Below, in pieces: positions 1 to 51,489 of a stretch of DNA of 64,000 bases. The notes under the pieces were generated by a model. That model was not told the origin of the DNA, searched no databases, and was given only the letters and a program-made list of their open reading frames with translations. The stretch covers positions 1,364,001-1,428,000 of the forward strand of contig NZ_CP047656.1 in NCBI RefSeq assembly GCF_009906955.1, read 5' to 3'. The number at the start of each line of letters is the position of its first letter. The first letter of the stretch is position 1. The DNA comes from Paraglaciecola mesophila. GTDB taxonomy: Bacteria > Pseudomonadota > Gammaproteobacteria > Enterobacterales > Alteromonadaceae. A program made the position numbers and the translations under genes.

Positions 1-55
1 TGAGAATAATCCACAGATGAGCAACACAGCCTTTGATTTCATTCTATTTTTCCTT

Positions 56-320
56 ATACCAATTCCATTAAATAATTGGCCTCTCAGAATTCATCCAGCG
101 GGTTTTGAACAAGGCGTCGGTGTGTAGTAATGGTTGTTCCCTTTCAAATACCGAGAACGTAGTGCAAAACCCGCTGGGGAATTCCCTTTGGGCGAATTTT
201 AAAAGGACTTACTCTGTGTTGCTCAAACTCGAAAGAGCACCACTATTACTTCATTTAAGCGCCTTGATTAAGTCCTTTTAAATTTTCGCTGAGTGGTTAA
301 TTATTTAATGGAATTGGTAT
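56..320 (+). mobile_element. MITE-like element, family A, copy 1 (265 bp, non-coding)
   Basis: The element is bounded by a perfect 22-bp terminal inverted repeat (56-77 and 299-320, beginning ATACCAATTCC). Two further inverted repeats lie inside: CCAGCGGGTTTTG (95-107) pairs with its complement at 165-177, with a GAATTC on each outer side, and TTAAAAGGACTTA (199-211) pairs with its complement at 269-281. The strand could therefore fold into a closed outer stem carrying two hairpin arms. No ORF of useful size is present. A near-identical copy lies at 51211-51489 in the opposite orientation, which shows this is a repeat family. I could not identify a clear target-site duplication or the transposase that would move it. 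Confidence 0.85.
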
Positions 321-466
321 TAAATTAATGCGAAGGGCGTTTGTAAGCACAAGCATCGTATAGCCCATCAAATCAAGGGTCAAATATTTATCCGAAAAGT
401 TCATCCCAGCGCATTCACGGTAAGTGTAACAACATGTAATTTAAACACTTTACTGGAAACTAACGG

Positions 467-2708: not shown

Positions 2709-2946
2709 TGAACTCTCTCTATTAAGTTGAGGCCTTGAGGAGACTTAAGACCAAATACATCGCGCTGACGTTAACGGCCGTTCTTTTCGTTGAACAAAAC
2801 AACGTTGCATTCTGACTGTTTATCCTTTTCACATAAACGTGACTAACGTAGCGTGACTCAACTGCGAAAGAACACAAGTATTGCACTTTCTAGGGTAAAT
2901 AACATACTGTCATACTACACAAACAACATTAGAGTAAGGCGCGACT

Positions 2947-3972
2947 ATGTGGATAACAATAATAAAAAAGCACCTAATGAGATCATGCATAAGTACAATG
3001 AGTGTCCTAACGTTACTCGGATGCGGTGGCTCAGGTGACGCCCCCTCTGTCACGCCCATAACGTCAACAGAAGAGCCAGCCATACCAAGTCCCTCCGCCG
3101 AAGAAGCGGACCAACCTCTGGAGTCATCACCGTTTACTTCTTTTCAAGCGTCAAGCAGCATCACAGTGTCCGCAGATGGGCCAAATTCAGGGTTATCAGC
3201 TTATAAAATAATCGAAAACGCGTTTGCTGAAGGGGCAATCGAAGCGCCCGATATGTACCCGACCGATCACGTCGATGTGTTGCATATTCTAGAAGATACA
3301 GATGAAATAGTGGGTCCTCACTTTATATTTCTGGCCCATAGAGATCGCGATTTTAATAAAGGTGTCGAGTCTGACCGGCAACGTAATGAAATTAAAACCT
3401 ATGACAAATCAGCTGAACCACTCAAAGGTTATCAAGGTGAAACCATGCAATTTAGCTGGAAATTCAAGGTATCCGGTGAACTAGAATTATCAAAAAAGTT
3501 CAGCCATTTTTTTCAACTAAAAGCTAAAAACTTTAACGAAGATAATAGCAATGGCAATGACGATCAGCCCATGATTACCTTGTCAGGAGTAGATAAAGAC
3601 AGCACGGGAAACGAACTGCAGATCCGCTACAGTAGCGGCTTTAACCCCGATGGCACAAGCACCTCTGATATCTATTTAATAAAAACGGACTGGTCATCTA
3701 TTACTGATGAGTGGTTAGAGATCAAGGTGCAAGCAACCTTCGCCGAGGAAGGTGCATTTTACATGCAAATCTCGCGCATACGTGACGATGCACTTTTAGT
3801 GGATATATCTGAGCCCAATATTGATATGTGGCGCGGTGTATCGAGTGAAGATTTTGTGCGGCCCAAGTGGGGAATTTATCGCTCGTTAGCAGATGCAGAC
3901 AGTTTACGCCCAGAAGAAGAACAAATACGCTTTGCAGATTTTAACGTGGCGAAAGACGCTGTAGCCGAGTAA
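2947..3972 (+). CDS. Surface lipoprotein resembling jelly-roll polysaccharide lyases
   Basis: The 341-residue protein has a signal peptide ending in the lipobox LLGC (Cys26), followed by a Ser/Pro/Glu-rich linker to about residue 75, typical of surface-exposed lipoproteins. The globular part has features seen in jelly-roll lyases of the heparin-lyase-I/alginate-lyase type: 'RQRNEIKTYD' (an R-x-E strand), 'HFFQLKAK' (an H-x-Q strand), 'WLEIKVQ' and 'PKWGIYRS'. In such enzymes Arg, His, Gln and Tyr from these strands line the substrate groove. The substrate cannot be read from sequence. An internal ATG at residue 11 is a possible alternative start. It is followed by a hairpin terminator. Confidence 0.55.
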   Translation: MWITIIKKHLMRSCISTMSVLTLLGCGGSGDAPSVTPITSTEEPAIPSPSAEEADQPLESSPFTSFQASSSITVSADGPNSGLSAYKIIENAFAEGAIEAPDMYPTDHVDVLHILEDTDEIVGPHFIFLAHRDRDFNKGVESDRQRNEIKTYDKSAEPLKGYQGETMQFSWKFKVSGELELSKKFSHFFQLKAKNFNEDNSNGNDDQPMITLSGVDKDSTGNELQIRYSSGFNPDGTSTSDIYLIKTDWSSITDEWLEIKVQATFAEEGAFYMQISRIRDDALLVDISEPNIDMWRGVSSEDFVRPKWGIYRSLADADSLRPEEEQIRFADFNVAKDAVAE

Positions 3973-3984
3973 GAAACACCATTA

Positions 3985-4020
3985 AACATGCCCGAAACGT
4001 CCACTACCAACGGGCATGTT
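3985..4020 (+). terminator. Hairpin terminator after the lyase-like gene
   Basis: AACATGCCCG (3985-3994) pairs perfectly with CGGGCATGTT (4011-4020) across a 16-base loop, 12 bases after the stop codon. It is followed by A/T-rich sequence but only a weak T run. Confidence 0.55.
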
Positions 4021-4136
4021 AACAATTGTATTTTGATGTGAGCTAATGCCAATAAGACAAGAAAGTATGAAATAAAACCAATAAAAATAATGATGAAGTG
4101 ACTGAAGTTAATTTTTTACATCTGGCACCGCAATCT

Positions 4137-51210: not shown

Positions 51211-51489
51211 ATACCAATTCCATTAAATAATTAACCACTCAGCGAAAATTTAAAAGGACTTAATCAAGGCGCTTAAATGATAGCCCTTTATTAAAAACTA
51301 ACCTGTGCTCTTTCGAGTTTGAGCAACACAGAGTAAGTCCTTTTAAAATTCGCCCGAAGGGAATTCCCCAGCGGGTTTTGCACTACGTTCTCGGTATTTG
51401 AAAGGGAACAACCATTACTACACACCGACGCCTTGTTCAAAACCCGCTGGATGAATTCTGAGAGGCCAATTATTTAATGGAATTGGTAT
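51211..51489 (-). mobile_element. MITE-like element, family A, copy 2 (inverted relative to copy 1)
   Basis: The same 22-bp terminal repeats as copy 1 bound this 279-bp copy (51211-51232 and 51468-51489), but the interior runs in the reverse sense, so its two arms appear in the opposite order. It is about 14 bp longer than copy 1 in the loop of the second arm. The right end is one base beyond the cydC stop codon (51491-51493). It contains no ORF. Confidence 0.85.

Follow-up and report, generated by a model that had tools for sequence, protein, structure and literature searches.

The window, by which we mean the whole stretch of 64,000 nucleotides of Paraglaciecola mesophila DNA that was analyzed, harbors close to its start a short mobile element with the layout TIR–H–7-nt spacer–inverted H–TIR, where TIR stands for terminal inverted repeat and H for a structured hairpin module present as two arms (Table 1). 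The first-pass annotation had described a 265-bp element with 22-bp terminal repeats at 56–320. An element is present there, but the mobile unit proper is 57–319, i.e. 263 bp between TTA duplications, and the repeats, though real, are longer than proposed, with 32 nt on each side (56–87 and 289–320) at 91% complementarity. Likewise, the two internal inverted repeats lie where they had been placed (95–110/162–177 in arm 1 and 195–214/266–285 in arm 2), but the arms to which they belong are longer than claimed, each consisting of an outer and an inner stem and occupying 87–184 and 192–289, respectively. The predicted fold of 56–320 shows the closed stem with two arms that had been anticipated. 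The GAATTC ‘brackets’ noted around arm 1 turned out to be the base of that arm's own stem, where other copies have, for example, GAATGC...GCATTC. The inverted relation of the arms, the spread of the module throughout the class and the tolerance of G.T pairs in each arm were absent from that annotation. No closed ORF of at least 60 aa overlaps 57–319 (the listing being of ORFs that do not run off the window edge), and the label MITE given earlier to the element fits its anatomy, as it is short and noncoding, has TIRs and a target duplication, and occurs as dispersed copies; a mobilizing transposase was not found in the loci inspected.

A second copy in the window belongs to a 279-bp subfamily, characterized by an extra 14 bp in the arm 2 loop. 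Throughout this work, the arms were searched for with R1, a covariance model for which only arm 1 sequences were used (alignment A2, 32 sequences).

Table 1. Features of the element and of a second copy in the window
Feature	Positions	Strand	Evidence
Left target-site duplication, TTA	54–56	.	Identical 3-bp flanks in 115 of 142 elements
Left terminal inverted repeat, closing stem	57–86	+	Inverted-repeat search, folding, covariation
Arm 1, structured hairpin module H, 98 nt	87–184	+	R1, 116.4 bits (R1 was built from this arm type); covariation
Spacer between both modules, 7 nt	185–191	+	Coordinates of R1 matches
Arm 2, read as an inverted copy of module H	192–289	-	R1 (built from arm 1 only), 68.6 bits, model positions 1–98
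Right terminal inverted repeat, closing stem	290–319	-	Inverted-repeat search, folding, covariation
Right target-site duplication, TTA	320–322	.	Flanks read; 3-bp flank test over copies
Second element copy, 279-bp subfamily	51211–51489	-	Arm 1 at 51361–51458; R1 finds no arm 2 there

Copies, target duplications and derivatives

A count of copies, as called for by the first-pass annotation, gave 40 near-full copies, one of them without the left repeat, in the genome to which the window belongs (own genome; 5.04 Mb, 2 contigs), and matches to the element in 18 of the 22 genomes of the genus, own genome included, the other four being without a DNA match. The own-genome copies comprise 20 of 264–265 bp, 15 of 279 bp, one of 278 bp and four of 266 bp, the last being ~81% identical to the window copy, and near-identical copies occupy many sites. 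A 15-mer of the left terminal repeat, TACCAATTCCATTAA, was found in 80 places of this genome, and the same sequence read backwards, used as a control, in none. Outside the 40 copies, 13 own-genome loci at H matches contained decayed copies and two further complete ones (L277 and L278). One of the decayed copies (L276, ~3966–4070) lies just downstream of a gene at 2742–3773 that reads by eye as recA.

The 3-bp flanks are identical in 115 of 142 elements (mean of shuffles 54.4, maximum 69), with TAA/TAA in 58, TTA/TTA in 53 and TGA/TGA in three of them. This set, drawn from the genus and from Shewanella, consists of the unique elements among 156 with both ends, which were in turn obtained from 226 places. 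One orthologous site was tested for absence of the element and was found empty: at the position of copy L030, contig 38 of the sister-species genome G006 carries flanks that are 95–96% identical to ours and that lie 2 bases apart instead of the 282 of the own genome, a size fitting the 277-bp element plus a 3-bp duplication. Where the own genome reads gcctt-TAA-element-TAA-atagcc, the sister species has gccttaaagcagcc, a sequence as long as the site would be with a single triplet and without the element. Despite the matching size, the target letters differ between the two species, since three letters of the empty site are different, one of them within the target triplet (AAA for TAA in an ungapped alignment). 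The element is an insertion, a mobile unit lying between 3-bp target duplications.

Degenerate forms were examined in 23 own-genome loci fetched around TACCAATTCCATTAA places outside the full copies. They include truncated copies, forms that end after 16–20 bp, three palindromes of 25 bp and a few forms of ~53 bp. Three of the arm-less derivatives measure 25 bp (L055, L058 and L064) and two 53 bp (L020 and L061), and four of these five are flanked by 3-bp duplications. Excision footprints were initially considered as the origin of solo ends, but deletions between the short direct repeats AATTGG and TTAAAT fit the 25-bp forms and two of the 53-bp forms better. That such tiny derivatives look like deletions near the stem base hints at palindrome instability in vivo. 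A one-H form of 162 bp, in which TIRs surround a single H between TAA duplications, is present in genome G651 (L251, 1470–1631). If the arm-less and one-H forms have moved as such, one or both arms would be dispensable; deletion in place explains them too. There are also solo stubs, e.g. in L042, L043, L046, L047, L057, L059, L060 and L062 (around base 2500 of each), in which TNA and the outer ~16–20 bp of the TIR are followed by unrelated DNA.

The search for a mobilizing transposase took several routes. Pairs of TACCA...TGGTA ends lying 40–6000 bp apart in 215 sequences (1.19 Mb) formed a single sharp class, of 240–300 bp, and larger well-matched pairs (e.g. in L131, L146 and L184) were taken for separate copies. 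Matches to PF01609 are present in 20 of the 22 genus genomes, and none of the 30 loci tested combined TACC ends with TNA flanks. When inspected by eye, terminal repeats of Shewanella basaltis (100 of 116 places listed) and of genome G439 (38 of 38) formed inverted pairs of element size or shorter, one 464-bp inverted pair in S. basaltis going beyond element size. No transposase was recognized among the ORFs of two of the 13 own-genome H loci mentioned above, nor in seven longer stretches with neighboring copies, the ORFs of which were read by eye, mostly over their first 70 residues. A frame between two copies in genome G744 looks like MnmA.

Fold, inverted arrangement and spread of module H

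Folding of 56–320 gave z-scores of -11.24 as RNA and -11.31 as DNA, with none of 200 shuffles as stable in either case. Compensatory change was assessed in a genus alignment, A1, of 48 copies gathered by blastn, nine of which are from among the 40 own copies and 39 from other genomes of the genus; six truncated or odd loci, one extra partial match, L082 (a 40-bp match), and L094 and L101 (broken folds) were excluded. When the 81-pair structure of the window copy is imposed on A1, 93.9% of cells are paired and two-sided changes are found in 43 of the 81 pairs, compared with a mean of 25.9 in shuffles (0 of 500 having as many) and 15–21 for slid structures, and the covariation score is 0.292 versus at most 0.059 for slid structures. 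RNAalifold applied to A1 yielded 76 pairs, 41 of them with two-sided changes. Sides of the arm 2 stem that have changed together are, for instance, AAAAGGACTTA/TAAGTCCTTTT, AAAAGGGCTTA/TAAGCCCTTTT and AAAAGCACATA/TATGTGCTTTT. Pairing stays high in a larger set of 134 distinct copies, drawn from Shewanella as well as from the genus, to which L094 and L101 were restored: on average, a share of 0.909 of the pairs is kept for the terminal stem, 0.965 for arm 1 and 0.982 for arm 2, and only four copies fall below 0.75 anywhere, in the terminal stem (L094, L105 and L112), in arm 1 (L101) or in arm 2 (L112). The first-pass annotation had suggested that the interior is under selection for a fold, and had named copies without pairing and a lack of compensatory changes as observations that would count against it. 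What was found instead is pairing kept at 0.91–0.98 together with two-sided change in 43 of 81 pairs, which supports the suggestion; template switching may account for part of the covariation.

The same picture emerges at greater distance. Alignment A3 comprises 37 arms from 19 lineages with R1-found arms (18 of them with arm 2) and shows two-sided changes in 33 of 35 pairs, with 92.0% of cells pairing versus 56.8 when shuffled, and a covariation score of 0.939 versus at most 0.198 for slid structures. Having been gathered with a structure model, A3 leans towards pairing and towards G.T, but A1, gathered by blastn, shows the same covariation. Sixteen of the 102 columns of A3 are fixed at a level of at least 85%. 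Ahead of the inner stem they make up most of CAAGGC; around the apex they cover parts of AATGG and of CCCTT and are followed by a single A; beyond the inner stem they comprise AAC and, further on, a G. Eight of these fixed columns are unpaired in the model and the other eight pair among themselves. Unpaired columns have a mean conservation of 0.70, versus 0.49 for the paired columns of helices 1–2. In the left repeat of the same lineages, only two of 32 columns are fixed (the innermost CA), and none of the outer 24. It is these fixed columns, and not mean identity, that separate the arms from the left repeat; the notion that terminal repeats are less similar overall than the arms found no support in the mean identities (0.674 vs. 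0.657).

Judged by their motifs and fold, arm 2 repeats the 98-nt module of arm 1 in inverted orientation. On the minus strand, 192–289 is covered by R1 along the full 98 positions of the model (68.6 bits, E 5.5e-16), whereas no plus-strand match was reported for this interval at E up to 1. To control for mere hairpin symmetry, arm 1 was also read backwards, which gave 35.0 bits. Among the own-genome copies, R1 detects arm 1 in 40 of 40, and the inverted arm 2 in all 24 copies of 264–266 bp, with 63.2–74.5 bits as against 26.2–37.5 bits for arm 1 on the wrong strand. It finds the inverted arm 2 in just two of the 16 copies of 278–279 bp, which carry an insertion in the loop of this arm. Among 35 element loci of other genomes, the inverted arm 2 is present at full or near-full length in 21; a full match is lacking in 14, including L320, which is cut by its contig end. 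Plain identity between arm 1 and inverted arm 2 is 0.58 in the window copy and ranges from 0.57 to 0.73. Because this is hardly above the shuffled level of ~0.575, the kinship of the arms rests on motifs and fold. Alignment of the loops to each other beats shuffles in five of eight copies (0–5 of 500 shuffles as high), and in the other three 23, 41 and 176 of 500 shuffles are as high.

Matches to R1 at a cut-off of E up to 1e-4, the E-values being rough, occur in 127 of 295 genomes (34 of 52 genera) of the family, in 81 of 394 genomes (28 of 114 genera) of the order and in 59 of 369 genomes (47 of 272 genera) of the class Gammaproteobacteria, and in most listed hits H is ~94–100 nt long. Carriers of the exact pattern, among the matches listed, are Paraglaciecola and Shewanella species, and replicons of Pseudoalteromonas, Alteromonas macleodii and Vibrio tritonius match by similarity. 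Plasmid records match the window element (two records) and a distant relative (five), and are from Pseudoalteromonas, Alteromonas and Vibrio; no plasmid matched a stretch taken from another relative, L321. The element matched no phage sequence, and one exact H pattern matched no viral contig. Distant members have the same layout at ~254–276 bp, often with other terminal repeats, the ends being partly set by a greedy rule. TACCA or TACCC is located near the outer end of the left repeat in 13 of 19 lineages, and the others differ. In genomes G782 (L323–L332), G744 (L339–L342) and G685 (L333–L338), relatives have long, well-matched TIRs that start with TACTAAG, CTAGTGT or TAGTGTCC, and their target duplications may be TA or CTAG.

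DNA, RNA or mutation behind the fold

The types of mismatch tolerated in the stems bear on which nucleic acid is folded. In A3, with each arm read in its own orientation, G.T cells outnumber A.C cells by 41 to 5 in arm 1 and by 44 to 21 in arm 2, cells that are not independent of one another; without the apical helix the ratios are 26:5 and 33:19 (p 0.07 for arm 2). Parsimony in the genus and Shewanella, again in own orientation, gave 71 events to G.T versus 41 to A.C in the arm stems, and per arm, on a tree of 132 elements (lengths outside 253–296 excluded), 50 versus 27 in arm 1 and 21 versus 14 in arm 2. Counted over the whole element, changes from a standard pair to G.U or to A.C (117 vs. 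91) are undecisive between RNA and DNA, and it is the orientation of each arm that is decisive. G.T beats A.C in DNA too. Since G.T prevails over A.C in each arm's own orientation, and thus on opposite strands, the pattern leans towards DNA rather than towards one RNA; were a single transcript the functional form, arm 2 would act opposite in sense to arm 1. We read this as selection on the folded DNA strand, with one H per strand.

An alternative, which we regard as doubtful, is that the element spreads as a MITE but that its fold has been kept at the RNA level, because transcripts form a structured RNA with a role in stability, processing or protein binding. The very stable RNA fold would agree with this, structured RNAs typically combine fixed motifs and covarying stems, and few copies lie between divergent genes (11 of 95 copies with gene context determined from long ORFs only, versus 32 convergent and 52 tandem). 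However, H occurs once per strand in mirror orientation and the excess of G.T falls on opposite strands; tandem copies show no clear orientation bias to genes (20 same, 32 opposite); and there was no Rfam match of note, positions 1–600 of the window giving two chance-level matches only (best E 2.3) and eight distant loci no match up to E 0.5.

It is also conceivable, if unlikely, that the covariation is largely mutational in origin: template switching in a quasi-palindrome would copy stem sides, and selection would act only on double-stranded, protein-bound motifs. In line with this, most compensations (107) are double changes within a single branch, versus 27 steps from G.T and three from A.C to a standard pair; loop insertions (e.g. 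the 14-bp gain in the 279-bp subfamily) resemble template switches, and close to the base of the stem there are deletions with short repeats on either side. By itself, however, template switching leaves unexplained the near-constant length of H (~94–100 nt), the class-wide fixed unpaired columns and the bias of G.T over A.C. Loop insertions resembling inverted copies of nearby loop sequence, such as are expected of template switching, were observed in arm 1 of L094, L095 and L099 and in arm 2 of the 279-bp subfamily.

Finally, the under-representation between divergent genes (11/95) and the existence of decayed copies would agree with a domesticated host element, serving in chromosome structure or as a 3′-end signal and mobile only in the past, but this is highly improbable in view of the near-identical copies at many sites, the empty orthologous site, the 3-bp duplications, and the lack of any DNA match in four of the 22 genomes of the genus.

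A proposed folded transposon end and its relation to known systems

We consider it somewhat probable that the element is a non-autonomous DNA transposon of the MITE type, 263 bp in length plus a 3-bp duplication (mostly TAA or TTA), the ends of which are folded-DNA H modules, one per strand. This reading builds on the dispersed copies, the target duplication, one empty site, the inverted H, the stems covarying around fixed motifs and the wide spread in the class. Each half, i.e. TIR plus H, would act as a long transposon end. When a strand turns single-stranded, or when a cruciform extrudes, H would fold on its own strand, and the folded H may then be recognized by the mobilizing transposase or by an accessory host protein. 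The mirror arrangement would provide each strand with one correctly oriented H, from which it would follow that the signal is DNA and not one RNA. A transposase of the DDE type, presumed from the 3-bp duplication, would be supplied in trans. The fold of the element, and not only its ends, may matter for spreading.

A bolder proposal, to which we attach low confidence, is that H constitutes the recognition structure of an unknown DNA-mobility system operating across Gammaproteobacteria, with the folded module, rather than the TIR, as the conserved identity. Pairs of H would then combine with different TIRs (of the TACCA/TACCC, CTAGTGT, TACTAAG and AGTACTCC types) and, having different terminal repeats, may use different transposases.

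Several known systems share some of these features. Elements of the IS1031 group of the IS5 family, and PIF-Harbinger-like elements, generate a 3-bp TNA or TWA target duplication, and the element described here resembles both in its TNA duplication (mostly TAA and TTA, with three cases of TGA/TGA); a transposase of their type with these ends was not found in the 30 loci tested here. Integron attC sites are recognized as folded single strands and have variable stems and conserved unpaired bases, as does H, but differ from our element, which has TIRs and a target duplication. Pairs of REP sequences are termed REPINs. According to PMC3733652, REP sequences associated with RAYT transposases have two inverted palindromic units per repeat, and folded strands are the presumed signal, much as proposed here; the unit in our element is, however, 98 nt long rather than 20–40 bp, and is accompanied by TIRs and a 3-bp target duplication. 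A REP-type tag (GTAG or CGTC) was looked for at the stem base, and no fixed tag exists over 37 arms. Finally, bacterial MITEs such as ERIC, NEMIS/Correia, RUP, BOX, YPAL and QMITE, as portrayed in PMC10969869, PMC3733652 and PMC4853749, are likewise short and noncoding, with TIRs, a target duplication, intergenic copies and a strong predicted fold. By those descriptions, the present element is set apart from them by an interior made up of two inverted, covarying hairpins with class-wide fixed motifs, and by outer TIR columns that are not fixed over the class-wide range.

Literature searches, mostly among papers other than subscription ones, covered both the element sequences and MITEs with a structured interior in the genera concerned, and showed no description among the papers listed. 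The 13–14-letter end words occurred in no paper of the literature searched, and for 9–10-letter words the matches listed, two of them on Vibrio (PMC8265627 and PMC7449626), were unrelated by title. Romine et al. are said to have reported MITEs in Shewanella oneidensis, of a related genus, in 2008. Within the literature searched, the element looks like an undescribed family.

The element provides a clear and testable case of bacterial mobile DNA in which a folded structure is seemingly under selection, and for which natural compensatory mutants are available throughout the class. A specific hairpin that is read by some factor, either of the host or of the transposon, is suggested by it, and the R1 model detects many intergenic repeats in Gammaproteobacteria, both marine and other. 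If H is the conserved identity of these elements, they would represent a class of mobile DNA whose defining feature is the folded core and not the ends.
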